Source: Candidatus Enterococcus ferrettii
Lineage (GTDB): Bacteria; Bacillota; Bacilli; Lactobacillales; Enterococcaceae
Length of the DNA: 35,723 nt
Assembly (NCBI RefSeq): GCF_017377655.1
Contig: NZ_JAFREL010000084.1
Span: forward strand, 1-35,723
Reading direction: 5' to 3'
Shown: in pieces, positions 1 to 23,100 of the stretch
Layout: each line of letters starts with the position of its first letter
Position numbering within the stretch: the stretch's first letter is position 1
The notes under the pieces: model-generated
The model's database searches: none
What the model saw: only the letters and a program-made list of their open reading frames with translations
What the model was told of the DNA's origin: nothing
Made by a program: the position numbers and the translations under genes

Positions 1-40
1 ATACTTATATAATACAAGCAGGATGTGAAAGAACTATGAA
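1..40 (-). promoter_or_regulatory. Promoter of a small-RNA copy (A), body off the window
   Basis: This is the first of four related minus-strand promoters. A TATTAT -10 lies at 9-14 and two half-sites, TTCACA (24-29) and TTCATA (35-40), are separated by 5 bp, giving an 11-bp period. The half-site nearer the -10 is 9 bp from it, the same spacing as in the other copies. The transcribed body would lie before base 1, so only the promoter can be described. It was assigned by alignment with copies B, C and D. Confidence 0.5.
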
Positions 41-150
41 TGAAGTGTTGGAAAACTTTAAAAAATGTTTCTATGAGATAGTTGCTGTTTTCCTTCAGCT
101 GAAAGATGCGATCAATTTTTCTGCATATATTGAAATCAAATTAATAAAAT

Positions 151-225
151 AAAAAAAGCCTGTCAGTGGGTGGCCGACAGGCAAGGAGTTAAAAATGAAA
201 AAGTGTTAGGGTTGTTTGTTGGTAT
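151..225 (-). ncRNA. csRNA-like small RNA, copy B
   Basis: This is a predicted minus-strand transcript of about 75 nt. It starts just downstream of a TATTAT -10 and ends in a rho-independent terminator: stem halves GCCTGTC and GACAGGC (158-182 in plus coordinates), followed by seven U (157-151). The central unpaired part reads CAUUUUUAACUCCUU, a perfect antisense of a Shine-Dalgarno plus start codon. Read on the plus strand it therefore mimics a ribosome-binding site followed by ATG-AAA-AAG-TGT-TAG. The same body recurs at copies C and D with only a few changes. The arrangement (direct-repeat box, short body with anti-SD/anti-AUG, terminator) is that of streptococcal csRNAs. Transcription and function are inferred, and the exact 5' end is approximate. 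Confidence 0.6.
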
Positions 226-231
226 ACTTAT

Positions 232-263
232 ATAATACAAGCAAAATGTGAAAAAATTGTGAA
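232..263 (-). promoter_or_regulatory. Direct-repeat promoter of small RNA copy B
   Basis: The -10 TATTAT (232-237) has no convincing -35 hexamer. Instead two TTCACA half-sites (247-252 and 258-263) are spaced by exactly 5 bp, with the nearer one 9 bp from the -10. An 11-bp direct repeat replacing the -35 is the usual mark of an OmpR-family response-regulator-activated promoter. CiaR uses TTTAAG-N5-TTTAAG in streptococci. Which regulator binds here is unknown. Confidence 0.5.
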
Positions 264-398
264 TGAAGTGTGGGAAAACCATAAAAACTGAAAAATCATG
301 CTATGTAATTTCACGCCATAATTGTTCTCTTGGTTTGCAGACAGACACTTAATAATCAATTGTATTTCTAGATTATTTCCTGTGAGAGTAAGATAGCT

Positions 399-475
399 AA
401 AAAAAGAGCCTGTCGGTGGGTGGCCGACAGGCAAGGAGTTAAAAATGAAAAAGTGTTAGGGTTGTTTGTTGGTAT
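399..475 (-). ncRNA. csRNA-like small RNA, copy C
   Basis: This is the second complete copy, on the minus strand. The terminator stem is GCCTGTCGG/CCGACAGGC (408-432) with a 7-nt loop, followed by a U-rich tail (407-399). The antisense-to-SD segment AACUCCUU and the CAUUUUUAAC stretch are identical to copy B. The 5' body (ACCAACAAACAACCCUAACAC) is also conserved, while the DNA between copies is unrelated, so selection appears to act on the RNA body, terminator and promoter only. Promoter and transcript ends are inferred. Confidence 0.6.
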
Positions 476-481
476 ACATAT

Positions 482-513
482 ACAATACAAGAAAAATGTG
501 AAAGAATTGTGAA
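482..513 (-). promoter_or_regulatory. Direct-repeat promoter of small RNA copy C
   Basis: The -10-like TATTGT is at 482-487. TTCACA half-sites are at 497-502 and 508-513 with 5 bp between them. Spacing to the -10 is 9 bp, identical to copy B. Confidence 0.5.
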
Positions 514-740
514 CGAAGTATTGGAAAACCATAAAACTTGAAAAGAGTTTAACTATATAGGTCCTGAAAAACTCATTTTTCCCCAGAATGATAAGAAATA
601 GAGTCAATATCAAAAAAACGCTCTAATAAACTTCATCATATATCTTTAAGTTTCTGGAAAATTGACTTTTCTTCCGGATTTTAACAAACCTAACCAATAG
701 ATTGATCTAACCTAATAATCCACAAAACAACAGGACTGAC

Positions 741-818
741 AAAAAGAAAGCCTGCCGATGGGTGGCCGGCAGGCAAGGAGTTAAAAAATGAAAAAGTGTT
801 AGGGTTGTTTGTTGGTAT
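741..818 (-). ncRNA. csRNA-like small RNA, copy D
   Basis: This is the third complete copy. Its terminator stem is GCCTGCCG/CGGCAGGC (750-774). Compared with copies B and C, both sides of one base pair changed (T to C on one arm, A to G on the other), so pairing is kept, which argues for a functional RNA hairpin. The anti-SD segment is conserved, with one extra U before the anti-AUG. It lies directly downstream of the Mga-family gene that ends at 917 on the same strand, but it has its own promoter-like box. Confidence 0.6.
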
Positions 819-824
819 GTCTAT

Positions 825-856
825 ATAATACAAGCCAAATGTGACAGAATCATGAT
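825..856 (-). promoter_or_regulatory. Direct-repeat promoter of small RNA copy D
   Basis: The -10 TATTAT is at 825-830. A half-site GTCACA lies at 840-845 and a more diverged one, ATCATG, at 851-856. Spacing is the same as in the other copies, but the distal half-site is degenerate, so this copy may respond more weakly. Confidence 0.4.
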
Positions 857-916
857 CAAAGAATAGGAAATCGATGAATTTTGTTCGCTGAATTTTTCTT
901 TTTCTTTAACGATTTC

Positions 917-2425
917 TTATGACTTCGCATTTGCTCGGTTTTTCTGACCATAAATTTCTCGCAGCTTCGTGTATAGAGGGATGAGATCTTTTTCTTTGTA
1001 ATTATGATCGAGAACATAAATCGGCAGCTTTGATTTTTCGCTTCGTAACAGCATGGAAGAGCTGATGATTAAATCATAGTCCTCCTTCAAGGAAGCATCA
1101 TAGGGTTCTGCCTGAACAAAACGCAGGTCATCCAAGAAACGGTACAGCTCCCGAACAAACAGGGCATTATGCTCCATGGCAATCCCAAGCCTTAAATTCT
1201 GAGCATAAGGAAATTGATTGAAGCTGGGCATCAGTAAGTGTTTGAAGGATTTTCCTAGCAGGACACGAATGGAACTTATGAACTGATAGTCAGGATTTTC
1301 ACCGGCTGTTTGCATGAAATTCATAATGTTTTGTTCTAATACATGTTCACCATAAGACTGATTTTGACTCGGCTTAAACACCATACTCATAATATTTGGA
1401 AAGGGTTGCCGGAAGACATAGTAGGCAAAAGTTATGTTTAACAGATTGCCGACAATCAAAGGATCATCCAAAATCTCTGGCTTGTCCGGAAATAGAGTCT
1501 TTTTACCAAAACGGCGAAATTCATTCACAAAAGCATTCACTGGGTTTGGACGGGTATCAAAATCATGGATCGTTTGCTTCAGACTGCTGTCATCACGAAT
1601 AGTATAAAAAGGAGCATAATGAGACAGAAAATAAATGAAACTGGTCTCACCCTTTAATTGTCTAGTGGTTAATGGCACGTCAATAATTTTTCCTAGTGAA
1701 GCAAAATCATAATAAGGATTGTCCTTCATCAAGAAATTGTAGCGGGAATCATATTTAGTGAAATGTTGTTTGTTTAGACGTAATAGAGAAATTCCCGCAA
1801 ATAAACGCAATTCCCGCACGCCGAAATAGGTACGAGACAGCGGAAAATAGGATTGAAAGGCTTCAACAGATTGATCTACTAATTGTTGATTAACCTCCAG
1901 AGGATAATCTAACCCTCGAGTTCCTAACCATAAAATATCAAACAACGCAATTCGAATCAGCCGTTCATCTCCAGACATTCCTGCTTCGGTGTAAGTAAAA
2001 CGCAAGTTAAAGGTTTTTAAATAGCGTTTCAACCGGTTGATTTTACGGGAAATAGTGGAGCGGCTGACAAAATACTCATCGCAAAAAGCTTTAATTGTAG
2101 GTGTTTCTTCATTTAAAAAATACAAGATGTATTGAAAAGGTACAGACTGTTTCAATAAGTGATAGCGATACTCATCAACGGTAGCTGAAAGATTGTCTAA
2201 ATTAATCTTTCCGGCCCGCATCATGATACTCTCGTGTTCCGGATGGATATCTTTTAATTCTTGGTCAATTTCATTTAGTTCAATTACTGTTTGCTGGTAG
2301 TTTAGATCCATTTCTTCAGATAATTGATTGACTGGAAAAATTTGCATACTGGATTGATTCAAATAGCGGAAAATTTTAAAACGTAGAAGGAGCGATGAAT
2401 CAAGCATCAGTTCTTCATAAAGCAT
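917..2425 (-). CDS. Mga-family transcriptional regulator
   Basis: The protein is 502 aa, the usual length for Mga/AtxA-type regulators. An N-terminal winged-helix segment (about residues 20-60) is followed by a second helix-turn-helix at about 105-155 (FVSRSTISRKINRLKRYL), then long helical regions typical of the PRD-like domains, and a C-terminal EIIB-like part. The start is supported by AAGGAGG about 9 nt upstream. Mga-type proteins activate surface and virulence genes, and PRD-domain phosphorylation by the sugar PTS controls several of them. Whether that holds here is not visible. The gene is separated from a second Mga homologue by a channel gene and has the small-RNA array downstream. 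Its targets are unknown; the WxL operon is a candidate. Confidence 0.85.
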   Translation of the reverse strand: MLYEELMLDSSLLLRFKIFRYLNQSSMQIFPVNQLSEEMDLNYQQTVIELNEIDQELKDIHPEHESIMMRAGKINLDNLSATVDEYRYHLLKQSVPFQYILYFLNEETPTIKAFCDEYFVSRSTISRKINRLKRYLKTFNLRFTYTEAGMSGDERLIRIALFDILWLGTRGLDYPLEVNQQLVDQSVEAFQSYFPLSRTYFGVRELRLFAGISLLRLNKQHFTKYDSRYNFLMKDNPYYDFASLGKIIDVPLTTRQLKGETSFIYFLSHYAPFYTIRDDSSLKQTIHDFDTRPNPVNAFVNEFRRFGKKTLFPDKPEILDDPLIVGNLLNITFAYYVFRQPFPNIMSMVFKPSQNQSYGEHVLEQNIMNFMQTAGENPDYQFISSIRVLLGKSFKHLLMPSFNQFPYAQNLRLGIAMEHNALFVRELYRFLDDLRFVQAEPYDASLKEDYDLIISSSMLLRSEKSKLPIYVLDHNYKEKDLIPLYTKLREIYGQKNRANAKS

Positions 2426-2582
2426 CCTATTTTCCTCCTTTACAGGCTTAGTAGCCGAGACTTGTCTACATTGTACTTTATTTGTTAAAAACTGTCAGTT
2501 TATAGGTACGAAACCGCTATAAAAGATTAAATTTATGCAGGAAATGTTTTTTTCGTGTATGCTGTGGATGAAGGTGATAAAC

Positions 2583-3167
2583 ATGACAAAATCAAGGCTC
2601 GAAGCATTTACCGACGGGGTGGTCGCGATTGTTTTGACCGTCTTAGTCTTAGATATTCAGATTCCAGATCCGCCAACGTTTGCTTCTCTTTACAGTATAT
2701 TTAATACATTGTTAGCCTATGTGGTCAGTTTTGTTTTTGTAGCAGTGATTTGGGTGACGCACCATCGCGTTATGCAAATGGCCGAGAAAATAAATTATGG
2801 TGTAATTTGGGCCAATATTTTTTGGCTGTTTTGGCTAACTCTGTGTCCAGCAGTTACCAGCTGGGTAGGTCGTAACCCTAACCAATTTTGGCCTGAATTG
2901 GCGTATGTAGTCGTATATGGTATGTGGAGTTTTTCCTTCAGTATATTCTCAAAAAAAGTAATTCAAGCTAATGATCCCAATAGTCACGTAGTGAAGGTTT
3001 TAAGTCGCGATAAACGCGGCCGCTTGTCGATGATTATTAATTTAATTTTATTGGCTGGCGTATTTATTTATCCGGCAGTCGGTATGTTGGGACGTTTTTT
3101 GGTGTCTGGCTTGTGGGTAGTTTCGTATCGCAAAGCGGATGAGTATTATCATAAGATATTCAAATAA
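2583..3167 (+). CDS. TMEM175-family (DUF1211) membrane channel protein
   Basis: The protein is 194 aa from the ATG at 2583. That start is preferred because AAGGTGA lies 6 nt upstream and because the family signature RLEAFTDGVVAIVLTVLVL then begins at residue 4, as in relatives (R-x3-F-[ST]-DG). In-frame ATGs at 2535 and 2568 would add up to 16 unlikely residues. Several hydrophobic segments follow, consistent with the six-helix repeat of bacterial TMEM175 potassium channels. The gene is monocistronic, divergent from the upstream Mga gene, and ends in a terminator shared with the convergent gene. A role in potassium conductance is family knowledge, not shown here. Confidence 0.85.
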   Translation: MTKSRLEAFTDGVVAIVLTVLVLDIQIPDPPTFASLYSIFNTLLAYVVSFVFVAVIWVTHHRVMQMAEKINYGVIWANIFWLFWLTLCPAVTSWVGRNPNQFWPELAYVVVYGMWSFSFSIFSKKVIQANDPNSHVVKVLSRDKRGRLSMIINLILLAGVFIYPAVGMLGRFLVSGLWVVSYRKADEYYHKIFK

Positions 3168-3171
3168 AAGA

Positions 3172-3203
3172 CTGTAAAGCAACCTGCTTTACAGCCTTTT
3201 TTT
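3172..3203 (+). terminator. Rho-independent terminator after the TMEM175 gene
   Basis: A 10-bp perfect stem, CTGTAAAGCA/TGCTTTACAG, with a 3-nt loop is followed by seven T (3197-3203). The last codons of the convergent Mga gene (stop at 3189-3191) lie inside the hairpin, so the hairpin is also coding on the other strand. Confidence 0.85.
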
Positions 3204-4640
3204 GTGGCAGTTTTCTTCGTAGCATGCAAATAAGTTTTCAAGCTCTTCAGTAGTAGGATAGAGCGAAAAGCTGATAATCGTTTTATCAGAGACCACTAAA
3301 CCCTGTATGTTGGTCACAATTATCTCATCAGAGACAATGGTGGGCAGCTGGGTAAGGTTCTCAAAAGTATTAATCACTGTAACAGAGAACTTGTGAGGGA
3401 AAATGGTTTGAATTAGTTCTTTGATCATATCAAGATGTTCGCTATCCGAATCAAATACTAAAGAAATAGCCAGCTTTTCAGCATTTTTCCGCAGTTCGGA
3501 CAGCAGATTGGGCCAATGAGTAATCAAAATATAAATATAGGTATGCAAAACATGAGTCTTCAGGTGAGGATAAACTGCCCAAAATAAATCCTGCAGCGAC
3601 TGAATAAAAGAACTATTGAACTTCGAGGCTTCTCTGATAAAAACAGATTGACTGTCGTACAAAATATAAGGTGGACCAATTTGCAGATTTGAAACATTGC
3701 ATAGATCCACTAAAATTTTATCAAGAAAATTTTCTGCGGAAATATTGAAGTATGCTTCAATTTTGTGGATAATCTCTTCAAATTTTTGTTTTCTTTCTTT
3801 TAACGAAGGATTTTGATCTGCCTTATCCAGCAATTCTTGATAGGAAAAAATAAATCCATCTGAGATGACTGCATCAATAAAGTCAAGATAACGATTACTT
3901 TTCAAGGCAAAACCAAGATTACTCCTCAAGCTGCTAGTAGAAAAGGCAGATAAAAAGCTGGGACGCTGGAAATAGGTTTCCTGAGAAACAGACGGCTTCA
4001 ACACCTTGCGATCCGCTCGATGAAAAATGATCAGCAGCCATACTTTCACTCGGAAGAAATCTGGAAAGGACAGAGGAACCGCTCGTTTCTTCATAGTTTG
4101 TTTAATTATTTTTTCAACAAATTGAACGCGATGCTCGCTAAACAAGAAGGTACAATCACTGTATTTTTCCATGAACAGATGGATCATAAAATTACAAATC
4201 TGCTTTTCATCTCCGGTAAAATCTAGAGTTGAGGGATCGATTTGGAAATCTCGCATTGCGAGAATTTTATTTATTTTCCGTAAAAGTCTGCGCAAAGTTG
4301 AGCGACTGATAAATAATTTGTCGGCTAAGTCATCCAAAGTTAGAGTTTCCAAAAAAACAAGCTCAATCAATTGGAATTCGGGGCTGGCTGTTAAAATTTT
4401 TTGATAACAATAACTAACTGATAAATTGGAAGGGAGAATCAATTTCACAGGTCCTTCGGCTATTTTTTGAATGCGAATAGAATAAAAAAGCTCATTACTA
4501 TACTCAATCAAAGCAGTCAAAGTTCGAGTGTTTACCTGCATGGCTTCTTGAAGCTGAAGAAAAGTTGCAAAATTTTTTGTCTGCAGCAGTTCTAATAACT
4601 GTAAAAGATTCTGTTCTCTGGTTGCTAACAATTCTCTCAT
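3189..4640 (-). CDS. Mga-family transcriptional regulator, divergent from the WxL operon
   Basis: The protein is 483 aa. An N-terminal helix-turn-helix lies at about residues 20-60 (LQEAMQVNTRTLTALI). A second, more canonical one lies at about 100-135 (LADKLFISRSTLRRLLRKI) and is followed by TGDEKQI, a motif position also seen in the first Mga protein (SGDERLI). The remainder is helical PRD-like sequence. GGAGTGAGG precedes the ATG. The gene reads away from the WxL operon across a ~280-bp region that contains an inverted repeat, so it is the best candidate regulator of that operon. The target is inferred from position only. Confidence 0.85.
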   Translation of the reverse strand: MRELLATREQNLLQLLELLQTKNFATFLQLQEAMQVNTRTLTALIEYSNELFYSIRIQKIAEGPVKLILPSNLSVSYCYQKILTASPEFQLIELVFLETLTLDDLADKLFISRSTLRRLLRKINKILAMRDFQIDPSTLDFTGDEKQICNFMIHLFMEKYSDCTFLFSEHRVQFVEKIIKQTMKKRAVPLSFPDFFRVKVWLLIIFHRADRKVLKPSVSQETYFQRPSFLSAFSTSSLRSNLGFALKSNRYLDFIDAVISDGFIFSYQELLDKADQNPSLKERKQKFEEIIHKIEAYFNISAENFLDKILVDLCNVSNLQIGPPYILYDSQSVFIREASKFNSSFIQSLQDLFWAVYPHLKTHVLHTYIYILITHWPNLLSELRKNAEKLAISLVFDSDSEHLDMIKELIQTIFPHKFSVTVINTFENLTQLPTIVSDEIIVTNIQGLVVSDKTIISFSLYPTTEELENLFACYEENCHKKRL

Positions 4641-4672
4641 GAATTCCTCACTCCTATCCTCTATGCGCCAGT

Positions 4673-4694
4673 TTCTACAAATCTGTATGTAGAA
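4673..4694. promoter_or_regulatory. Inverted repeat, possible operator between regulator and WxL operon
   Basis: A perfect 7-bp inverted repeat TTCTACA-N8-TGTAGAA lies 33 bp upstream of the Mga-family start codon, directly next to a TTGACT hexamer (4696-4701). Its place in the divergent promoter region suggests an operator, but the binding protein is unknown. Confidence 0.4.
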
Positions 4695-4810
4695 GTTGAC
4701 TCATTTTAACCCTCCAAGTTTTATATACTTGTGGAACTAGCCGAAACACTTCCATCTTTATTGTAAAACAGGAGCCAGCTTTTAGAAACCAAGGTGCATT
4801 TTCAAAGAAG

Positions 4811-4828
4811 CCGGGACATATGTCCTGG
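4811..4828. promoter_or_regulatory. 18-bp near-perfect palindrome in the WxL operon leader
   Basis: CCGGGACATATGTCCTGG has a perfect 12-bp core (GGACATATGTCC, 4814-4825), one G-T position, then two further pairs. It lies about 95 bp before the start codon of the WxL operon's first gene. Short matching segments flank it (GAGCC near 4772 and GGCTC near 4851). It could be a dimeric protein site or part of a structured leader; the sequence does not decide which. Confidence 0.35.
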
Positions 4829-4922
4829 ATGTTCGTGGGGTCTCTTTGTTAGGCTCTAAAAAGAATTCGGCAAGCCAATCGTCGTTTTCAATAATTTTTG
4901 ACAAAAGCTAGGGGGGATGCCA

Positions 4923-7900
4923 ATGAGAAAAAGCTGTACACTTTTTTTAACTGTTCTTTTGTTGCTAACTGGAGTGAATCAGTCGATTGCTTTAGCAGTG
5001 AATACTTCAAATGAAGGGCAAGTTAATGAAGGAATTATTGAAGATCCAGAGACACCTGTACAGCAAACAAGCGAATCGACTATTGACTCGACTGAAGATC
5101 ATACAACAGCAGCGAGCGAAGAGGAAAAAGTGCAAGCGTCAATCGAACCCGATGAACCAGAAATCGGCACGTCTTCAAAAAAAGAAGAGCAGCAAGAAAA
5201 ACAACCGCAGATAAGAGCAGTGGAAGCAGAAGCAACAGTCGGTTCTCAAAAAGAGCTTACTCAAGCACTGGATGATGGTGCCAAAAAAATCAAGGTGAAT
5301 CAAAGTATCCAGTTAGTTGATAGTGATGTCAACATTAGGGATGAGGTTGTCATTGATTGGGGAGGCTATCAACATAATTTTGGGATAAACAAGATTTTTA
5401 TCCGAGAAGGTAATTTTGACGTAACGTTTATTAATTTTAAAGTACATGGGGATCATAATGGAACGAGCAACGGATCGGTGATTCAAAATCATGCACTCAT
5501 TTATGGAAATAATGAACATGATTTTCTCAATCGGCCTTATAACTTTACGGGGCGCTTAATTTTCAAGGGAAGCTTTGATGTAGTTAACAAGACGGCGAGT
5601 ACAGTGGCTCGAGTGCCAGAAGGACAAGTGGAATTCCAAGGAGCAAGTGGAAATATAGATATGTGGCCTAAACGTGAGGGGGAGGCATCTTGGACCAATC
5701 CTGGTTGGATATATACTATTCGATCTAAATCTCTGATTGTCAATAACAGTCATTTAACAGCGAATTCTCTTCCAAAATTTTACGGCCGGTTAAATTCCGA
5801 CAATGGGGAGGAGGATGGATTAGGCTTGACTGTTACCGGAGGCTCCACCTTAGATTTTCACAATGAATCAGGCGTCTCAGGGAACTGGGAGGGACAAATT
5901 GTCGAATCAGATGTAAACGGCTTCCAATTAAATTTGGATCAAGGCAGTTCATTGACAGTAACCTCTGACATCAAAATTACGGAGCAAGCCAATGCCGGAA
6001 TTATTCAGCTAAAAGGGAATAATTCTAAAATCAATGTTCAAAACAATGCTCAGCTGGTTATCAACTCATCGTTTACCGCAGGCTTAAGAATTGCTGGACA
6101 AAACAGCAGCCTGCATGTAGCAACCGGTGGGAAAACAACCATTCAGCAAAAAGGAGATAATAATCAATCCTATAATGCGGGAATTCGGATGGCTGAAGCT
6201 GGGTTGACTATTACGGTTACAGATAAAGGATCAAATCTAAGCGTGTTTAAAGAAAGCGGAAGTACCTCAGCGATTCGCTTTGAGAGCGGCGATCAAGCCT
6301 TAAATGTCCAAAATGGTGCTTCATTGGAGGTAACCAATTTGGGAGACAATCAACTACATTCAACTGGGGAAGATCGGGGGAGCCAGGCAGTGCAGTTCGT
6401 AGATACCTCCTCTTGGTGGGGCTCCATTTTTAATCCAACCTCATCCTCCTTCAAGGTTGATGGTAAAAGCTCAAACATTAAACTGCATGCCCAAGGAGGA
6501 TCGGTCGTTGATGCCAGCGGCTCAATGGGCTTGAACTTTAGTGCCAGCAAAGACACCTTCTTAGACTTAGTTGGTGAAACGAATGCCGCCAACAAAGGTA
6601 TTGTCAGCGGCAAATGGGTAAAGGTCAAGCTGGACAATCCGATGTACTTTGATTTTCAGAACAAACGGAAGGGAACAAAAGAAGATTCAGGAGCTTTTTT
6701 ATTTCAAGGAAACCAAGACTCTACATTAGACATTAAAAACTCTGCCACCTCCTTTTGGTTAAAAAAGTCAGCCTACCAAGGAAACGTTGAAGGTGATCCG
6801 ATTGTTTCTTATCCAAGAGCAGACCTTTCCTTTAGGGATGCTGATTTAAGAGCCTTTGTGTCTTCTTCTATTCCAATTGGTATTGCTGAAATAACCGGTT
6901 CTGGAGCGATGATGAATGTGAATCGTATCAGCTCCAACAATCAAGAACCGGTCGTTGATCAATTGGTGACACCGACAAATGCTGACCAGCGAATCTATGG
7001 TCACGTTTCTGTTCCAGAGGGGGTAAATTCTGATTTTAGGGATGCTTGGACCAATGAAGTTAGGCTTCAGGTGCAGGTTACTTATGCAGCAGCAAATCAG
7101 CAACCACAAATATTAGAGATTCAGACCAAGAATGCCCTATCTGGCTACAATCCTTGGGGGGAGGAAAAACCCGCGGGCGGATTTTTTGAAGCGATACTTC
7201 CAGATGGGCAATTTTTAAATGAAGGAGATGTCGTTCAGGTGATTTCGGCTAGTCGAATCTCTAATGGGTTAGCAGTAACCGAGTTGAATACCCCAAAGAA
7301 AACGGTAGATGTTATACCTCCCGAACCAGCGAAGGTGGCAGTAGATAGCCTGCAGTTTTATTCCTCCACTGTTACCGGAAAGGGTAGTGCAGGGAATAAG
7401 GTGGCTCTTTGGATTAATGATCAGCTTCATTCCGAGACATTGACCGAGATTACGAATGAGGGAGACTTCGAAATTACTATTCCAGCAAATGCACTAAGCT
7501 TCGGAGACAAGGTGGATGTCGTTGAATACGACACCGCTCCGGAAGTCAGTGATTTATTGGACCGACCAGTTACCAATACAGAGTTGGGAAATCGAAATCC
7601 AGTAGAGCAAGCCCTGACTTACCATGACAAAACGTTTGAGCCGGCTCCTCGATTATTGGTGTACGGAGATGTGGAGTTAACTATCCCTTCCAGTATTTCT
7701 TTTGGATCAATTAAGCGAACGGGAATTACCTCAACAACCTTCGCCAGCTATCAAGGGGAATTAAAGGTAACTGATGAGCGGAAGAATAGAGAAGGCTGGC
7801 AACTGCGTTTAAAACAAAATGCGCCTTTTGTTAACAAAGAGAATCCAGAAATAAGTTTGGAAAACGTTCTGTATTATCAGCAGGCTGGAGAACAGCATTT

Positions 7901-8075
7901 AATCGACAATAACTATCTTGAAATTGCTAGTGGAAAAAATAGTAATCCTAGCTCAGTAGAATTGAGTGATCGTTTAGGAGATCTTATGCTTATTCTTGAT
8001 TACCAGAACCAGCAGCTGGGCAATTTTACCACGGAATTGAACTGGGAGCTGGCCGATGTACCAACCAATAATTAG
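4923..8075 (+). CDS. Large secreted WxL-domain surface protein
   Basis: The protein is 1050 aa. The ATG at 4923 is chosen over the in-frame ATG at 4917 because AGGGGGG (4910-4916) then sits 6 nt away and the product starts MRKSCTLFL. A signal peptide covers about residues 1-26. An acidic S/T/E-rich linker runs to about 95. Residues about 105-700 are rich in short N/G/V-containing repeats that look like a parallel beta-helix. An Ig-like segment lies near 790-870, and a C-terminal WxL domain carries its two hallmark tryptophans at 959 (WQLRL) and 1041 (WELADVP). WxL domains bind peptidoglycan non-covalently. It is the first gene of a five-gene operon with the sortase substrate, two other WxL proteins and the DUF916 partner. 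The ligand of the beta-helix part is unknown. Confidence 0.85.
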   Translation: MRKSCTLFLTVLLLLTGVNQSIALAVNTSNEGQVNEGIIEDPETPVQQTSESTIDSTEDHTTAASEEEKVQASIEPDEPEIGTSSKKEEQQEKQPQIRAVEAEATVGSQKELTQALDDGAKKIKVNQSIQLVDSDVNIRDEVVIDWGGYQHNFGINKIFIREGNFDVTFINFKVHGDHNGTSNGSVIQNHALIYGNNEHDFLNRPYNFTGRLIFKGSFDVVNKTASTVARVPEGQVEFQGASGNIDMWPKREGEASWTNPGWIYTIRSKSLIVNNSHLTANSLPKFYGRLNSDNGEEDGLGLTVTGGSTLDFHNESGVSGNWEGQIVESDVNGFQLNLDQGSSLTVTSDIKITEQANAGIIQLKGNNSKINVQNNAQLVINSSFTAGLRIAGQNSSLHVATGGKTTIQQKGDNNQSYNAGIRMAEAGLTITVTDKGSNLSVFKESGSTSAIRFESGDQALNVQNGASLEVTNLGDNQLHSTGEDRGSQAVQFVDTSSWWGSIFNPTSSSFKVDGKSSNIKLHAQGGSVVDASGSMGLNFSASKDTFLDLVGETNAANKGIVSGKWVKVKLDNPMYFDFQNKRKGTKEDSGAFLFQGNQDSTLDIKNSATSFWLKKSAYQGNVEGDPIVSYPRADLSFRDADLRAFVSSSIPIGIAEITGSGAMMNVNRISSNNQEPVVDQLVTPTNADQRIYGHVSVPEGVNSDFRDAWTNEVRLQVQVTYAAANQQPQILEIQTKNALSGYNPWGEEKPAGGFFEAILPDGQFLNEGDVVQVISASRISNGLAVTELNTPKKTVDVIPPEPAKVAVDSLQFYSSTVTGKGSAGNKVALWINDQLHSETLTEITNEGDFEITIPANALSFGDKVDVVEYDTAPEVSDLLDRPVTNTELGNRNPVEQALTYHDKTFEPAPRLLVYGDVELTIPSSISFGSIKRTGITSTTFASYQGELKVTDERKNREGWQLRLKQNAPFVNKENPEISLENVLYYQQAGEQHLIDNNYLEIASGKNSNPSSVELSDRLGDLMLILDYQNQQLGNFTTELNWELADVPTNN

Positions 8076-8087
8076 GAGGGAACAACA

Positions 8088-8363
8088 GTGAAGAAATGCC
8101 GCTATTTATGGCTGCTGCTTTTGCTGATGTTCAGTGCTGTATGCGTAGCTGATCACTCAAAAGCAGCAGTCTCAATCGGAGAGGTTACCTTCGATACTGC
8201 TCAACCCGCAGTTGGAGAGCCTTTAGAAAAAAATAAAACAGAAGCCGCACCTGCGATAAAGAATTATCCTAAGACGGGAATGCTGGAAAGCGTTACTTTT
8301 AATGTGATCGGTCTTTTGCTCTTTCTGACAGCTCTTTGCTTCATGAGGAGGCAGCGTGAGTGA
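8088..8363 (+). CDS. Small sortase-anchored protein (NYPKTG motif)
   Basis: The protein is 91 aa with a GTG start behind AGGAGGG. An N-terminal signal peptide spans about residues 1-27. A short mature part leads to a sorting signal: NYPKTG, a 20-residue hydrophobic segment and a positive tail (RRQRE). The motif is YPKTG, not LPxTG. Small LPxTG-type proteins of this size are regular members of WxL operons. The stop overlaps the next start by 4 nt, indicating coupled translation. Its role in WxL complexes is unknown. Confidence 0.8.
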   Translation: MKKCRYLWLLLLLMFSAVCVADHSKAAVSIGEVTFDTAQPAVGEPLEKNKTEAAPAIKNYPKTGMLESVTFNVIGLLLFLTALCFMRRQRE

Positions 8364-9070
8364 ATAAAAAGATCATTTCTTTCGGATTCTGCCTGCTCAT
8401 TTTGCTCTTTCCAGGTGTGGTTTTTGCTCAACTAGATAACTATCAAACATCAGGATTGCTTGCTGTTACAGCTAATGAGGGTGAGACAGCTCTTTTAAAT
8501 CCGTTAAACCCTGCTCAAGAGGTGATTGTTAAAGACCCCATTAGTGGAGCTTCCTTCAGTAATGGTGAGAAAGGCCTGTTAACGATTGATTACATCTCGA
8601 ATTTCAAATTTAGCGAATATGAGAAAACTCGCGATGGCCAGCTCAGCTTCCATTCAGAAAAACAACCTGCAGTCATTAAGGAAACTCAGCAAGAAGAAGA
8701 CTTGCCCTTGTTCATTCAAATTTCTGATACTCGCGGTCAGTTGGGAGGCTGGGAATTGCTGCTGCATCAGGATCATCAATTCACTTCAGACCAGATGAAC
8801 GTATTAAATGGAGCACAAGTGGAGTTAGGGGAGGGACGGCTGAATGATAACAGCACAGGCCACCAAGAGGATATAGTGCCTGCAATGTTACTTCATCCGG
8901 ATGGAGAAGCAGTTTATGTAACAGACAGCTCCAAGTTTCAAGGGACGACCGCTTTTGTTTATTGGAAGCCAACGGCAGTTCATCTGACGGTGCCAAGTCA
9001 ATCAGATAAAGGCGATTCAAATTATCGGACATCCTTCCACTGGCAGCTGGCGGATGTTCCTCAGGCATAG
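8360..9070 (+). CDS. WxL-domain surface protein
   Basis: The protein is 236 aa with a GTG start overlapping the previous stop (GTGA) and AGGAGG 8 nt upstream. A signal peptide ends near residue 24 (VVFAQ). Most of the mature protein is one WxL domain. It has the conserved opening (GLLTIDYISNFKF), the first motif GGWELLL near residue 132, and the terminal HWQLADVPQA. The length is typical for compact WxL proteins. It is expected on the cell wall together with the other operon products. Confidence 0.9.
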   Translation: MNKKIISFGFCLLILLFPGVVFAQLDNYQTSGLLAVTANEGETALLNPLNPAQEVIVKDPISGASFSNGEKGLLTIDYISNFKFSEYEKTRDGQLSFHSEKQPAVIKETQQEEDLPLFIQISDTRGQLGGWELLLHQDHQFTSDQMNVLNGAQVELGEGRLNDNSTGHQEDIVPAMLLHPDGEAVYVTDSSKFQGTTAFVYWKPTAVHLTVPSQSDKGDSNYRTSFHWQLADVPQA

Positions 9071-9079
9071 GAGGGATTT

Positions 9080-10087
9080 ATGAGAAAAGGAATACTAAGC
9101 TGTCTACTGCTGTTGCTGCTATGTTTGCCAGTAAGAGCCGCAGCGGATTCAGAGTTCAATTTTTCTGTCCAATTTGCATTGCCTGAAAATCAGGTGGATC
9201 AGGACAAAACCTACCTGGATCTAATGGTAGAACCAGGCAGTGAGCAGGTAGTAGATTACACGATCAGAAATGATACGGAAAATGACTTAACTATAACAGT
9301 GGCGGTTCATCCAGCTACTACCAACGGAAATGGCGTAATTGAGTATGCACGCGCACCTGAGTTTACGGATGATAGCCTGCAGCATAATTTAGTGGATCTA
9401 GTATCTTATGAGAAAGAGCTGGTGGTTCCTAAGCAATCCAGTATCCAGCAGCAGCTCATAATTACCGCTCCTGATGAAGCTTTCACTGGAATTATTGCTG
9501 GAGGAATTACTTTTCAAGAAAAAAATACCTCCAGTGTTAGTGAAACAAATGGGGTAGGAGTGACGAGCACATTTTCCATGACTAAAGCTATTTTGCTGAG
9601 AAACAAATCTGAGGCTGTATCGCCAGAATTAGAGTTGAAGAGAGTTTCACCAGAATTAGTGAATGCACGAAGTATTATTCAAGCGATAATTCAAAATGAT
9701 CATCCAGCCTATCTTTTCGACAGCACCTTTGATATCACACTTGAAAAAAGTGGTACCGCCGAACCATTTTACGAAACAACGGTGGAGAATATTTCTATTG
9801 CACCCAACTCGACCTTTGGGTATCGAATTCCTCTCGATGGAAAAACACTGGAGTCTGGCAACTATACACTTTCTATTCAGGTTGCAGGGGCAGAAAAAGA
9901 ATGGCATTTGGAAAGGGATTTTCAAGTATCGGCTAGTCAATCAGAACGTCTAGCTGCAGAAGATGTGGACATCCAAGAGAAAACACCTGATTCCTCAGGA
10001 TATATTTTCCTGGGATGGGGACTTGTTTTACTGATGATGTTCCTCATTGGAAAATTTATTATAGCGAAAAATAAAGGAGAGAAATAA
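9080..10087 (+). CDS. DUF916/DUF3324 WxL-interacting membrane protein
   Basis: The protein is 335 aa. A signal peptide (about 1-22) is followed by the DUF916 region (opening FSVQFALPENQVDQDKTYLD, a typical start) and the DUF3324 region (about 160-290). One transmembrane helix near 308-328 (YIFLGWGLVLLMMFLIGKFI) has a short basic tail. This architecture is that of the WxL-interacting protein, which is membrane-anchored and binds WxL proteins in Enterococcus. GGAGG precedes the ATG, and the gene sits between two WxL genes with almost no spacing. Confidence 0.92.
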   Translation: MRKGILSCLLLLLLCLPVRAAADSEFNFSVQFALPENQVDQDKTYLDLMVEPGSEQVVDYTIRNDTENDLTITVAVHPATTNGNGVIEYARAPEFTDDSLQHNLVDLVSYEKELVVPKQSSIQQQLIITAPDEAFTGIIAGGITFQEKNTSSVSETNGVGVTSTFSMTKAILLRNKSEAVSPELELKRVSPELVNARSIIQAIIQNDHPAYLFDSTFDITLEKSGTAEPFYETTVENISIAPNSTFGYRIPLDGKTLESGNYTLSIQVAGAEKEWHLERDFQVSASQSERLAAEDVDIQEKTPDSSGYIFLGWGLVLLMMFLIGKFIIAKNKGEK

Positions 10088-10089
10088 GT

Positions 10090-10845
10090 ATGAAAAAATT
10101 ATCGATGGTAAGTATGCTGTTCATTTCATTTGGTTTATTAGGAGGAGCATCTGGAATTTTTGTTGAAGCTGCTGAGAATGATGCATCTACCCCAGCAACA
10201 GCTACGATTGAAAAACCAGACGAAAACGATCCAAATGACAATGGATCGGAAGGAGACGATTCAGGAAATCCTACAGATCCTGATGATGATTCTGGCTTTA
10301 ATCCCGATAACCCTAATACCGGGACACCAGGTTTATTACGAATTGACCATGCCCCCTCTAGCTTTAATTTCGGGACGATCAAAATCGGAAGCAAGCAAAC
10401 AAAATTTGCTGCATTGGAATCAGGAACAGCTACGGATGGCACAGCGAAGGAAGTACCAAACTATGTAAAAGTAACTGATAATACCGGGAATTTTGCTGGT
10501 TGGGAATTATCTGTATCCCGCACGGAGTTTGTTAATCAGGAGGATGAGGCACAAACCTTGGATGGCACAACCTTGAGCTTTAAACATGCTTATGCGAATG
10601 CAGGATCAAAAGGTGAAGGAATGCCCTCTACCGTAGCCAGTGAAACAGCTATTCCGGTAGATGCAAAAACCGTATTAGTCCAAGCAAATGAAAATGAAGG
10701 TATGGGTGAGTGGTACTACGTATTAGGTGCTACTAATGAAGAAGGTGCTCAAGCTGTTGCTTTAGACGTACCAGTAAAAAAATACACAGCAGGCAGCTAT
10801 ACATCTACGCTAAATTGGAACCTGACTGATGCACCAAATGCGTAA
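10090..10845 (+). CDS. WxL-domain surface protein
   Basis: The protein is 251 aa. A signal peptide (about 1-28) is followed by a low-complexity acidic D/N/P/G linker (about 30-78) and a full WxL domain. The domain opening is LLRIDHAPSSFNFGTI, the first motif GWELSVS is near residue 139, and the end is LNWNLTDAPNA. The gene begins 2 nt after the previous stop and is the last of the operon, followed by a strong terminator. Linker composition and domain length match well-studied small enterococcal WxL proteins. Confidence 0.92.
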   Translation: MKKLSMVSMLFISFGLLGGASGIFVEAAENDASTPATATIEKPDENDPNDNGSEGDDSGNPTDPDDDSGFNPDNPNTGTPGLLRIDHAPSSFNFGTIKIGSKQTKFAALESGTATDGTAKEVPNYVKVTDNTGNFAGWELSVSRTEFVNQEDEAQTLDGTTLSFKHAYANAGSKGEGMPSTVASETAIPVDAKTVLVQANENEGMGEWYYVLGATNEEGAQAVALDVPVKKYTAGSYTSTLNWNLTDAPNA

Positions 10846-14880: not shown

Positions 14881-15082
14881 AGATGTTCCTCTCACAAAAC
14901 ATAGCGCAACTTAGCATCACTGCTAAGACAGTCCGCAAGTTATTCGCTTGCGTCCCAACATACAGAACAAAAAGAGAATTCTGTACATTTCGGCGAAACT
15001 TCCTAGACCTGCTTCTTCATGTCTCTTGCACTCCACAGGATTAATAAGCTTCGCGACCTCTACCTCATTGATTGAGGCATCT
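14881..15082 (-). ncRNA. Lysine riboswitch (L box)
   Basis: In the ~200-nt leader I read on the minus strand, in order: GGUAGAGGUCGCGAAGC (15064-15048), AGGAAGUUUCGCCGAAAU (15006-14989), UUGGGACGCAAGC, ACUGUCUUAGCAGUG and GCUAUGUUUUGUGAGAG. These are the conserved blocks of the lysine riboswitch in the right order. P1 can be closed by AGAUG (15082-15078) and CAUCU (14885-14881). High lysine would favour the downstream terminator and switch off the ABC importer. Ends are approximate. Confidence 0.92.
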
Positions 15083-17155: not shown

Positions 17156-20100
17156 ATGAAGAAAATAGTAGGAAATTTTGTTAAGTATGTCATGTTGGTA
17201 AGCTTGTTAATGGGGAGTATGCCCATTTCATATGCGGAGGATATTAAAGAGGCCGTTGATCAAAGCAAGGCAGAAAATTATTACAAGGATACGATTGAGA
17301 GCGTTCAGGAATCTGTTATTCCTGATGCAGGAAATTCAGTTGAGGTTCCTTCTACTGAAGAGGTAAAGGAAACAGGTCAGTCTTCTAGTGAGCAGTCGGA
17401 AGAGGAAGTTAAAACCCCACCGGAAGAGTCAACGGAAAATAAAGCTGAAGAACCAAAAGACTATGAGGTTCGCTTACCAGAAGTAGAAGAGAAAAAGAAT
17501 AGTATCGAAGAAGAAGCTTTAAGAGAAAAATATGGCGAACCGATTTTAGTAGATGGACAAGAACAAATTTATAAAGTGGATGAAACACATTTCATCACTT
17601 ATATCAGTGGAGATGTAAAAACGTACAAAGATGACGAGGGAACGGAAATACCTGTTGATTTAAGTCTGATAACCGACAATCAAGGTGATGAAACAGTCTT
17701 TAAACCGAATGGTAGTCCAGTAGATGTTGTGCTGCCTAGTAAAGTAGATAAAAATCAAGGGATTCAAGTTTCTAAAGGAAAAGATACATTAGAGTTAATT
17801 CCTAAAGATGTGACCTATGAAAATGCCACAGTAAAAGAAAATGCTCTTTTGTACAACAATGTCGATGAAGCAGATGATGTCCAGTATACAATTACTGATA
17901 ATGGTGTCAAAGAAGAAATTATTTTGGAGGAATGGCGAGAGAAGCATCAGTTTACTTACTATTTTTCTTCTGATAAATACTCAGCAACTGTAGAAAACAA
18001 TCAGGTTATTATTACTAGAAAAGGGAAAAAGGAAGTTCTGTTTGTATTGTCTGCACCTGTAATGATCGATAATGCTGGGGAAACGAGTGATGAGATTCAG
18101 TTAAGCTTAAAAGAACAAAAAGATAAGTATGAACTGACAATTGACGCAAGTGAAGAATGGCTTAAGGATACGAATCGAGCATATCCTGTTCGAATCGATC
18201 CTACAGTAACGGTTCCGACTGAAAACCTGATTGATACGGTAACCAGTTCTGTTCATGGAACCTATCAGGGACGTGGCTATGGGTATGTTGGATATATCAC
18301 ACAAGCAATGACCGGTATATGGAATGCTAAGGACGTAGGTCGTACCAGGATCTATACCAAAGTAAACTATGATTTTTCGAAGATTCCGAAAGAAGCAAAA
18401 ATCGATAATGCTAGTTATAATTTGTACCAATATATCCAGTATCCTCAAACCAATGCAACGTTTTCCAGCTACAAGCTTACTCAGGATTTTGATATTAACG
18501 CATTGACTTGGGATAATTCTGTAGGTTTATCGCAAGAACCCACAGGTGAAAATGCGATTAGTTCGGCAAAGCATGGAATGCACAGTTTTGATATTCGAGA
18601 TGCGGTAAACAGCTGGGTTCAAGGAACAAGTCCAAACTATGGAATCGTTGTTCAAGCAACTAATGAAAATGATTATGGTGGAGCCTTCTATACAACTTAT
18701 TCAACTGGTGGCCCAGGACAGGTAGACTTCACTCCGGATAAACGACCAAGTATGACGATTAATTGGTCGATTCCTGATCCGATTGATGCAAATTATCCAC
18801 TTAAGGATACTTCTGTTGCACTTCGTTCTATGATGCTGACAGACAAAAGCGGGAAACTGCAGTTCAAAGGAGTTTTTGCTGATGGTCTTACTACCCCGGG
18901 CGCAATTGTTGATTTTGAGTTAAGTGATCCAAGTAAGAGTTATCATGGGCAATCTTATGCGAGCTATTCGTACAAATATCCTGATTCCAGTCCATTTGAT
19001 ATTCATTTTGAAAAAGGGACAACAAGGTACAAAGATAAGTTGTCAAACTGGCAGACAGTGGGTCCATTTACTCATCCTGACTTTAATAAGGTGTATACAA
19101 TAGATGCCGAGAGTAAAAAGGATGGAAATAGCAGTGGGAAAAAGAATAGCGAGAAATTCGTTATCTATAAAGTCACTCAATACGACACTCTTCCTAAAAT
19201 AGCAGCCTATTATGGTGTTCCGCTGGCTCAGATTGTTTACGATAATCGCGTGCAGGATATGCTTCTTTTGAGCAACAATACGCTCTTTATCCGTAATCCG
19301 AAAAAGAATGCTGATAAGCCCTACAATCCGCCGAAGCTTTCTGATGGAACAAAAGAGGATATTGATAGTTTACTAATGGGGCGAGGTCTTCACTGTGAGT
19401 TTGGCTTCGAACCAATTAACCTAAACACTGGGAACTTTTATTTAGATCGTACCGATGTATCGATTCCGAGTTTTACTAGCGACTTCGAGATAACCCGTTC
19501 ATACAATTCTAAAGGGGCAGATTATAATAGTCTCTTTGGTCGAGGATGGTCGTTTGCCTACAACGAGCAGGTAACCAGTGATGAAAAAGGCAATCTTTAT
19601 TATACGCGGACCGATGGCAGTATCTTAAAGTTTAAAAAAGAGGGCAACAAGTATGTGGCGCCTGAAGGTTACGACTTAACTCTGTCAGTGAAAGATAAAG
19701 AAACAAAAGAAGCCGATTTTGGCAATGGAAAAGAAAAATACACTGTCAAAGAATACCATATTACAGATAGTGAAAATCAAGAAAAAATCTTTAATTATTT
19801 TGGTCTTCTGGCGAGTCAGAAAGATGAAAAAGGGAACGTTACTAAGCTTGATTATAATAAGAATGCACAATTAACAGCAATCACTGATCCTACAGGAGCT
19901 CTTTACAATGTTTCAATGAACGAAGAAGGGTATATCGGAAGTATTACTGTGCCTAATGGGTCCAAATTAACTTATGAATATGATGACAATGGACATTTGA
20001 CCAGTTTTACTGATTCAACGGGTGTAAAAACTCGTTATGAGTACAACAAAGAAGGCCTGATGACTGCTTGGTATGATGGAAATGGCACTAAGATTATTGA

Positions 20101-23100
20101 AAACACGTATGACAAAGAAGGCCGTGTCGTAAAACAGGTAGATGGCACAGGCGCAGTTTCTACTCTTGAGTATAGTAACGGGCAAACACTTACAACGGAT
20201 GGGAATGGAAATAGTACCACCTATCATTATGATAAGCAATACAGGACAACGGGAATCGATTATCCTGATGGAACAAGTGTCTCTAACACCTATGATGCAG
20301 CTAACCGGCTGACGAGTGAGACAAATGAAGCAGGTCAGACCACTAGTTATACCTACGATGACAATGGAAATATCCTAACTGAAACACGATTTGATGGTGC
20401 TGTAAAGCAAGCAACCTATGATGCAAAAAATCATATTACCAGTGAAGTTGACTTCGACGGCAAGAAAACACTCTATACGTACGATGGCTCTGGTAATTTA
20501 AAAGCTATTCAAATCAATGATCGTCCGAGTACAGCTTTTGAAGTAGATAAACAAGGACGTGTGACTAGCACGACCGATTCTGAAGGAAATACAACATCTT
20601 ATGGTTATTCCGGGGCATTCCTAAATAAAATAGTGAATCCCCTTAAAGGGACAACCACTATTGACTATAATTCTCATGGTCTTCCAGTTAGTATGACGAA
20701 TCCTTTAGGTGGAGTTACAACGCTAACCTATGACAATGAGGGACGGAAAACCAGTGAAACTACACCAGATGGGCAGAAGACCGCTTATACCTTTGATGGT
20801 GCTGGTCAAGTGATCGCTCAAACTGACGGAAATGGCTTTACTTCGAGCTATACCTATAATGCAGTTGGAAACCCCTTGACCAAGATAAATGGCGAAGGCG
20901 GCAGCTATTCGTATGTCTATGACGGTGTCGGCAATAGAATCCAAATGACCGATGCTGAAGGGAATAGCACCACTTATGTCTATGATCAGCGGAACCGTCT
21001 ATTAAGTGAAACAGATGCTGCTAGTCAAACGTTGACCTATCAAAGAGATGCACTAGGACGACTGCTAAGCGATACTAATGAAGCTGGAAATAACAGCACA
21101 TATACCTATGACGAAGTAGCTAATCAAATCGCAACCATCACGGATCCATTAAATCAGGTAACCAGCAATACCTATGATGCCTCCGGTAATATCATTAAAA
21201 CGGAGCATCCTGATGGAACCCAAGTGATCATGGAATATGATGATCTAGGTCAAGTGATTAAGAGTACTGATGAGGCCGGAGTAGTCTCTACTTATGAGTA
21301 TGATGCTAATGGTAATAAGCTAAGTGAAACAGTAGACGGGCGAACTACCAGCTATACCTATGACTCATTGGGAAATGTAACTCAAGTGACTCATCCCAAC
21401 CAAGAAATAAATACGTACACCTATGATTCAATGGGAAATATTTTATCTTTCACTGATGCTCGAGGGAAGAAAACTTCTTATACGTATACAAAAGGCGGCG
21501 CATTGGAAACAATTACTGACGCACGTGGGAACAAATCATCGATTTCTTATGATGGCAACGGCAACCAGGCGAGTGTTACTGATGCAGCAGGTTACACAAC
21601 CAGCACTGCGTATAACGGTCACAATCTCCCAGCAATTGTAACGGATGGATTAGGAAATAAAATAACCTATTCCTATAATCAGATAGAACAAATAACCAGT
21701 TCCACAGATGCTCTTGGCAACCAAAAGACTTATTCCTATAACGAACTCGGTTATCCAACAGCTATCACAGATGAGAATGGGAATGTTCACAAGCTATCCT
21801 ACACCCCAACAGCTCAAACAGAAAAGATCGAGAAACCAGATGGGACAACCTTAACTAACAGCTACGATGCTCTTGACCGATTGGTGAAAGAAACACATTC
21901 GAACGGTTTAGTCACTGAGTACGACTATGATGCAAGTGATCGAGTGGTTCATGTGAAGGACAATCAGGGGTTAGATGAGACATATACCTACAATAATCAC
22001 GGCAAACGTCTCACAGAAACTAATAGTCTAGGTGAAACCACTACGTATGCTTATGACACTCAAGGTAACTTACTCAAGGTAGAATATGCCGATAAAACAA
22101 GTGAAGTCTTCACCTATGATGACATGGGGAATATGTTAACCTCGACAGATGTTGAAGGAAAACTAACGACGTACAGCTACGATAAAAATGGCAATCTTAA
22201 AGAAGCAACAGATGCCAAAGGACGGATAACCTCCTACACTTATGATGATATTAATCAAATTGTGACAGAAACGAATCCAGCCGGAGGAGTCATTACCTAT
22301 ACGTATGATGTACTGGGAAATGTATCGAGCATCACCGATGAAAAGGGTGAAAAAACCAGTTATGGATACGACGCCAATCAAAACTTAATCCTTTATACAG
22401 ATGCAAAAGAAAATACAACAGCATTAAAATACGATCCATTGAATCATCTAATGGAGAAAGTCAGTCCAACAGGAGCCGTACAAAGTTATTCGTATGACAA
22501 TCTGGGCAATCCACTGACAGAAACAAGTGGAGAAGGAAATACGACCAGCTATACCTATGACGAAATGAACCGCTTGGCAAGTGTTACAAAACCAACGGGT
22601 GGTGTAAGTCAATATACCTATGACCAAACGGGCAGTCTTCTGTCGGAAACTGATGAGAATGGGCACCAAACAACCTATGAGAACGACCTTTATGGACAAG
22701 CGATGAGTCGTACTTTGCCAACTGGTGCCAAATATAGCTATGCCTATGACAAGCTTGGGCGCTTAAGTCAACAGACAGCACCTAAAGGATTGTCTCAAGA
22801 TTATAGCTACGATGTGTCTGGCAATTTGATTCAGCAAGAAGATCAATCAAAACGTACCACCAAGTACACCTATGATGAAGCTGGACGACTGCTTACCACC
22901 ACTGATCCTGCTGATTTAACCACTACTTTTGACTATGATGAAGCTGGAAATTTAGTTGAAGCAGTAAGCCCTAGCGGTATAAAAACAAATTATAGCTATG
23001 ATGTGTTAGATCGCTTGGAAACAGTGACTCAGCCAACCGGTCGCCAAACAGCTTACGAGTATGATCCTGTGGGACAATTAACCACAAGAACAATTAATGG

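Follow-up and report, generated by a model that had tools for sequence, protein, structure and literature searches.

Tandem genes for predicted anti-start small RNAs, family-wide in Enterococcaceae-like genomes, with an operator layout also found before htrA

Multicopy small RNAs (sRNAs) that pair with translation start regions have been described in streptococci and in Listeria. The streptococcal csRNAs, as presented in PMC4438229, PMC3091779 and PMC12826053, exist in several copies, expose an unpaired anti-Shine-Dalgarno (anti-SD) and anti-start-codon stretch, stand behind a direct-repeat N5 operator and share a regulon with htrA. They are under the control of CiaR (Halfmann 2007 and Marx 2010, as cited in PMC4438229), whose operator is TTTAAG-N5-TTTAAG, and they fold into two stem-loops with about 40 unpaired nucleotides between them, the nonamer [A/C]UCCUAAA[A/C] being given as typical (PMC4438229). 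CiaR activates htrA in pneumococcus (PMC12826053), and CiaRH is described in PMC3091779 as reported only in streptococci. In Listeria, LhrC1-5 form a five-copy family that is controlled by a two-component system (LisR), binds ribosome-binding sites and targets the adhesin LapB (PMC4132741), and LisRK is named among the systems linked to htrA (PMC12826053). For the enterococci, the dRNA-seq study PMC7724050 presents E. faecalis sRNA_112 and E. faecium sRNA_005 as a conserved pair whose starts were mapped and in which nucleotides 1-50 are highly conserved, also in Melissococcus and Tetragenococcus, and sRNA_109/sRNA_093 as similar to Rfam sRNA_084; the portions of that study describing these RNAs mention neither a multicopy regulon nor a link to htrA. 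Among the papers listed by open-access literature searches, none dealt with an enterococcal multicopy anti-start sRNA family tied to htrA.

We analysed a 35,723-nt stretch of an Enterococcus-like genome (the window), at the start of which a first-pass annotation had noted a tandem array of csRNA-like genes. We consider it likely that these are tandem genes, distributed family-wide in Enterococcaceae-like bacteria, for predicted RNAs of about 75 nt that would silence translation by pairing with SD and start codon, and that their operator layout also precedes htrA.

The array and its genomic setting

The minus strand carries three complete units (Table 1), each with a promoter box, an anti-AUG/anti-SD core and a terminator. 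This had been proposed before and was borne out by the terminator scan, the predicted folds and the matches to a covariance model (R1) and a promoter model (R2, described below). The fourth copy, said to be cut by the window edge, is present too, but contributes only its promoter. The three complete units are built alike. A direct repeat TTCACA-N5-TTCACA, which has diverged further in the third unit, is separated by 9 nt from the -10 box TATTATATAAG; downstream come 43-44 unpaired nt and then a G+C-rich hairpin with U behind it. The A of AUACCAAC is the expected first base of the transcripts. Within the unpaired stretch lies CACUUUUUCAUUUUU(U)AACUCCUU, which is complementary to AAGGAGUUA(n)AUGAAAAAGUG. 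Five terminator-like sites were found in positions 1-3000 against 2.0 expected (sd 1.3), three of the five being the array hairpins. A simple sigma-70 scan did not list the array promoters and found no excess (9 against 9.8 expected), as these promoters have a -10 box but the direct repeat in place of a -35 hexamer.

Table 1. Predicted features of the array and the adjoining gene (window positions)
Feature	Position	Strand	Evidence and remarks
Promoter/operator of the incomplete copy at the contig edge	2-40	-	TTCATA-N5-TTCACA, -10 TATTAT; R2 E 5.6e-5; BLAST piece 1-63
Predicted sRNA gene, copy 1	151-225	-	~75 nt; R1 97.7 bits; fold z -5.95, first 43 nt unpaired; 5' end expected at 225 (A of AUACCAAC); a 5-U tract separates anti-AUG from the AAC of anti-SD
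Operator and -10 box, copy 1	225-263	-	TTCACA-N5-TTCACA-N9-TATTAT; R2 E 2.4e-9; operator pattern with 0 mismatches; overlaps expected first base
Intrinsic terminator hairpin, copy 1	158-182	-	Terminator scan; compensatory stem changes at 8/8 pairs, 38 sequences
Anti-AUG/anti-SD core, copy 1	183-203	-	Complement of AAGGAGTTAAAAATGAAAAAG
Predicted sRNA gene, copy 2	401-475	-	5 U; R1 99.9 bits; fold z -6.02
Operator and -10 box, copy 2	475-513	-	R2 E 2.4e-8
Intrinsic terminator hairpin, copy 2	408-432	-	Terminator scan
Anti-AUG/anti-SD core, copy 2	433-453	-	
Predicted sRNA gene, copy 3	741-818	-	6 U, one more than copies 1 and 2; R1 93.4 bits; fold z -4.27
Operator and -10 box, copy 3	818-856	-	First half-site divergent, ATCATG; R2 E 2.2e-5
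Intrinsic terminator hairpin, copy 3	750-774	-	Terminator scan
Anti-AUG/anti-SD core, copy 3	775-795	-	Longer U tract
Mga-type regulator gene adjoining the array	917-2425	-	PF05043 61.9 bits; same neighbour in G005; listed as a neighbour of the array

The plus strand might instead be the functional one, with its strong ribosome-binding site and four-codon ORF (MKKC) acting as a peptide gene or decoy leader, and AAGGAGTTAAAAATGAAAAAGTGTTAG is indeed present in 3/3 complete window copies. We regard this as very improbable: the terminator and the operator/-10 layout point to the minus strand, the invariant block runs on through positions without coding logic, and the frame is not conserved. The MKKC ORF that had been noted in each copy holds for the window but is not a family trait, MKKC-stop occurring in 35 of 54 distinct RNAs of the family.

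BLAST of the array's own genome gave seven places, four in this contig (C141), two at the end of contig C147 and a solitary one on C77. Downstream of prs (NCBIfam), the C147 end carries one complete copy and then a second copy of which the 3' part is present. The relative nearest by these copies, G005, has five of them in a row, within about 1.3 kb and flanked by the same two genes, prs and the Mga-type one. Since C147 ends in prs plus copies and G005 has the contiguous five-copy arrangement, the C147 end is probably adjacent to the start of this contig, and most likely the array consists of five copies split over the two contigs by a break inside the repeated RNA. A second Mga-type regulator gene lies at 3189-4640 (-) of the window (NCBIfam NF053736 AcpB/EbpR/MafR, 225.7 bits against a cut-off of 130).

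Spread, conservation and probable kinship of the RNA family

BLAST with the array as query found matches in 40 of 60 genomes, the own genome included. By family, these were 36/37 genomes of the own family, f1 (that is, 35/36 relatives), 3/3 of f8 and 1/1 of f5; genomes of f2, f3, f4, f6, f7 and f9 in this 60-genome set gave no match. G008, the one f1 genome without a match, shows a promoter-model site on a contig that ends at ...CATACCAA, and its sRNA copy was therefore probably cut. The covariance search that had been suggested for finding more copies gave R1 matches in 58 of the 295 genomes of the order (f1 45, f8 12, f5 1). The earlier description of a tandem family in an Enterococcus-like genome was thus right but too narrow. 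Copies also occur on 17 plasmid records (16 Enterococcus, 1 Vagococcus), 15 of them predicted conjugative. One conjugative E. faecium plasmid has two shortened tandem copies beside a tRNA gene (L148 4869-5108, NZ_CP064407.1), and a phage-labelled E. faecalis record with a copy (L147, OR846601.1) appears, from its housekeeping-type ORFs, to be host chromosome. We take genome G021 to be E. faecalis because it and L147 carry an identical copy.

In an alignment of 38 sequences the first ~43 nt of the RNA were near-invariant, the consensus fold was a single helix, the terminator stem, and all eight of its pairs had changed on both sides. Five copies were folded: the first 43-44 nt were unpaired in four, while the fifth, with 8 U, had an alternative centroid fold. 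The spacers between copies are unconserved, as had been claimed; the conserved part, however, is not the RNA alone but also the ~40-45 nt of its promoter. Multiple copies, also on conjugative plasmids, are what a plain intergenic repeat or mobile element lacking RNA function would give, an explanation to which we attach almost no weight given the compensatory stem changes, the position-specific conservation against unconserved spacers, and a promoter spacing that is fixed over 98 promoters. We conclude that the units are genuine and conserved genes for predicted sRNAs, csRNA-like in design.

The siblings differ in the U tract between anti-AUG and anti-SD, which counts 5, 5 and 6 U in the three window units against 8 in the copy on C147. 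Over 28 loci groups, lengths of 6 (40 copies), 5 (28), 7 (6) and 8 (1) were counted, where the same copies may recur in overlapping loci, and lengths were mixed in 11 of the 23 groups with more than one copy. Calculated duplex energies favoured one sibling RNA for single genes by several kcal/mol. As SD-AUG spacing varies between mRNAs, siblings with different U tracts would favour different mRNAs, and we infer that target preference would follow U-tract length.

No part of the window sRNA copies reached the gathering score of an Rfam family. A permissive search matched the three window copies to RF02846 Ref84 (Enterococcus sRNA 84) over 1-87/87 on the RNA strand at 28.0-28.5 bits; copies of relatives scored at most 38.8 bits, and neither these nor the window copies attained the gathering cut-off of 52. 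RsaOG matched two copies at a similar E-value (24.0 bits), so the Ref84 score by itself says little. Ref84 and the window family nevertheless have in common the 5' end UACCAACA.ACAACC, a U-rich tract, the anti-SD ACUCCUUU and a terminator, whereas the internal hairpin of Ref84 is absent from the window copies. The common start and anti-SD make kinship likely, which suggests that the family is related to this catalogued but uncharacterised enterococcal sRNA. In variant copies (L204 932-1027 (-) and L038) a second anti-SD (ACTCC) lies in an apparent small hairpin, as in the Ref84 model. Set beside the family by their description in PMC7724050, sRNA_112/sRNA_005 and sRNA_109/sRNA_093 are likely members of it.

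As for the csRNAs, the proposed design stood in part. Own promoter, terminator and, in predicted folds, an unpaired region with anti-SD and anti-start codon are all there, but in place of the CiaR operator the family has TTCA[CT]A-N5-TTCA[CT]A in 98 promoters, in place of two stem-loops a single terminator hairpin, and by eye the nonamer is absent from its consensus. On the features listed in PMC4438229 we would therefore place the family as csRNA-like in design but outside the csRNAs, by its other operator and single hairpin. LhrC resembles it by description; the LisR-responsive positions given for LhrC lie upstream of -53 (PMC4132741), whereas the repeats here lie at about -39 to -23 and replace a -35.

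A promoter operator and its layout before htrA

The sRNA promoters carry a direct repeat of 11-bp period, TTCAYA-N5-TTCAYA, 9 nt before the -10 box, a feature new here. Over 98 sRNA promoters, one of them misregistered, the TCA triplets of both half-sites, 11 bp apart, were conserved at 94-99% per base and the TA of the -10 box at 99%. TTCACA-N5-TTCACA prompted a phosphate reading, from the B. subtilis PhoP consensus (Pho box), which was dropped once the sites before htrA emerged. A composite operator pattern, allowing at most one mismatch, matched in 26 of 37 genomes, and the reversed pattern gave 0 in every genome. Matches outside sRNA places were confined to one recurring site in each of 14 genomes and one site each in G021, G039 and G044, the last three followed by anti-start RNA-like sequence.

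We built R2, a sequence-only model of the 40-nt promoter, from 49 promoters without any RNA body and ran it on 34 genomes. From the matches listed, 20 without a known RNA were taken and, with L115, made up a follow-up set of 21 sites. An anti-AUG/anti-SD core lay within 110 nt downstream in 11 of these 21, compared to 34 of 3804 windows drawn at random from these loci, and in 9/9 of those with E<1e-3; at L218 a core visible by eye was missed by the strict core expression. Of the remainder, L216 was cut by a contig end, L223 preceded htrA, L224 and L226 preceded membrane-protein genes (FtsX at the cut-off for L226; no Pfam family for the L224 gene), and five (L219, L220, L221, L227, L228) had neither RNA core nor operon and looked like chance. 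Divergent anti-start RNAs were found in this way in families f1, f4, f8 and f9. One f4 locus (L207, genome G039) has two tandem RNA units in which the start, ATAAGCATACCC, is the same and the core is another, CTTCATAAATCTTTCTCCTCC, still anti-AUG plus anti-SD.

An htrA gene was found in 59 of 60 genomes, and the best 30 of these 59 loci, all from f1, were used for the upstream test. A TTCATA-N5-[TGA]TCAAA-like repeat with TAGACT about 9 nt on occurred within 200 nt before the start in 29/30, compared to 0/1127 windows of the same loci, by a regular expression written after the htrA upstream sites had been viewed. The thirtieth locus is that of the own genome, where the contig ends 80 nt upstream. 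The htrA sites differ in detail from the sRNA ones (half-sites TTCATA/TTCAAA, -10 TAGACT), and on the sRNA promoter matrix most scored -15 to +12, far below the sRNA promoter median of 36 but clearly higher than the means over windows, about -20 to -32. Trypsin_2 and PDZ domains mark the L223 gene as HtrA-like; its best NCBIfam models are HtrA, below cut-off in a cut-short frame, and in G044 (family f9) an R2 match lies 49 nt before the htrA match. These data support, at the level of sequence, a regulon-type operator whose layout the sRNA promoters share with htrA.

Which regulator reads this layout was considered next to the recurring operator site. In 14/14 genomes that site lies upstream of one gene for an OmpR-type response regulator of 223-224 aa, at 27 nt (13 genomes) or 34 nt (1), and in the 13 cases where it was located, an ABC-transporter gene is divergent from it. 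A two-component system with the operator in its own promoter could thus govern both itself and the sRNAs (in L069, response regulator 5506-6177 and kinase 4466-5506). Orthologs (at least 63% identity) occur in the own genome, 18/19 g1 relatives, 2/2 g2 and one each of g11 and g16; the operator stands in the regulator promoter in 17/17 g1 loci with a located start (2 unlocated) and, by eye, in degenerate form in 2/2 g2 loci, and was not seen by eye before the gene in g11 and g16. Among the best 30 of 68 OmpR-type matches in the own genome, some of which are by eye not regulator genes, the operator expression hit only the known locus. Set against this, 14 of the 36 sRNA-bearing f1 genomes, G021 included, gave no ortholog at E<=1e-60 and still have the operator. 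This distribution weakens the system as sole, autoregulating regulator and makes it unlikely to control the sRNAs; being missing from these 14 genomes and lacking the operator in g11 and g16, the response regulator has the look of one member of the regulon or of a regulator particular to a lineage, not of a universal one.

The half-sites before htrA also bear some resemblance to TTTTCATA, a B. subtilis CssR octamer. CssR is not claimed as the regulator, and the accessible part of PMC6057675 gave no comparable consensus. CroR was considered because RNA data place htrA in its regulon, as stated in the review PMC12826053. Its published motif, given in PMC9426447 as TTTATTAA, is not the sRNA operator, and TTTATT occurs in 5/30 htrA upstream regions and is absent from the G021 locus; we rejected CroR on this mismatch and hold its control of the sRNAs to be improbable.

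Targets and the proposed regulon

An exact target pattern (AAGGAGTT-A(n)-ATGAAAAA, searched as AAGGAGTT-A(4-7)-TG-AAAAA-type ATG sites) had only three matches in 37 genomes outside the sRNA places, which were compared by eye. These lie in G000, G005 and G019 at one orthologous gene for a surface-type protein with a signal peptide, the start region of which is identical while the upstream leader has diverged, in close relatives where the coding side is constrained anyway. The G000 protein had 0 Pfam families above cut-off, and that of G019 matched Flg_new_2 (InlB-like repeat) at 22.9 bits, below the cut-off of 23.6. In the own genome, the exact pattern with up to three mismatches gave 8 matches, 3 of them sRNA loci, and a looser pattern 17 (5 sRNA loci) compared to 3 for the control, counts that real SD-ATG starts inflate.

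The pairing search against gene starts that had been suggested was run on a sample of 378 (400 kb plus the window), where the surface-protein gene ranked 3rd by duplex energy with its best sibling RNA. Genes with a signal or transmembrane segment (crude call, n=54) paired more strongly than the others (median -16.1 versus -14.4 kcal/mol, p=0.003) and made up 11 of the top 40 versus 14% overall. However, 15 of 60 composition-shuffled RNAs matched or exceeded this difference; a bias towards secreted proteins is therefore not established, and this modelling supports such a preference weakly. Of the translation-silencing regulon on MKK-start (secreted) proteins first imagined, the operator shared with htrA speaks for the regulon, and the secreted class as its target is weakly supported.

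The RNAs could also act mainly as a protein or RNA sponge. The CCAACAAACAACCCUAACAC segment in their 5' part is near-invariant, as conserved as the anti-start core, and the loop CCACCC of the C-rich terminator is kept in most window-group copies. That these, and not start-codon masking, are what matters seems rather unlikely to us, however, as the promoter-only model re-finds the anti-AUG/anti-SD core in divergent RNAs with a differing 5' segment, and a gene with the exact target exists.

Under the preferred reading, start-codon masking, an OmpR-type response regulator would bind the 11-bp-spaced repeats under envelope or secretion stress and would switch on htrA and the sRNAs together. In selected mRNAs, they would mask start sites of the AAGGAGUU-A(n)-AUGAAAAA type, including that of the signal-peptide-bearing surface protein; sibling copies with 5, 6 or 8 U would suit mRNAs of different SD-AUG spacing, and tandem copies would add RNA dose. 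Tentatively, with somewhat less than even confidence, we propose for enterococci and neighbouring Lactobacillales families a regulon of envelope/secretion stress that couples HtrA to tandem anti-start RNAs with graded U tracts, through an operator unlike that of CiaR or CroR, such that stressed cells may cut the synthesis of exported proteins while clearing misfolded ones. Envelope-stress small RNAs lower outer-membrane protein load, and the proposed regulon would be a Gram-positive counterpart. If so, one of the most widespread enterococcal sRNA types without assigned function (Ref84-like) would gain a circuit: a first candidate target, a rule of pairing and a regulator in common with htrA. 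Multicopy anti-start RNAs would then be tied to an htrA-linked envelope response in streptococci (csRNA), in Listeria (LhrC) and in enterococci alike, and the operator before htrA would offer a direct way to the regulator.

The rest of the window holds several features of its own. By eye, positions 4917-10845 (+) form a cluster of surface/secreted-type ORFs of WxL-type look, several with MKK or MRK starts. A lysine riboswitch (RF00168, 88.2 bits) lies at 14894-15070 (-), upstream of an amino-acid ABC transporter operon. A 3183-aa YD/RHS-repeat-like protein is encoded at 17156-26707 (+), and at 27183-28499 (+) its C-terminal core recurs in a second, shorter version that ends in another tail and is accompanied by small ORFs; judged by eye, the pair is arranged as in polymorphic effector/immunity clusters.
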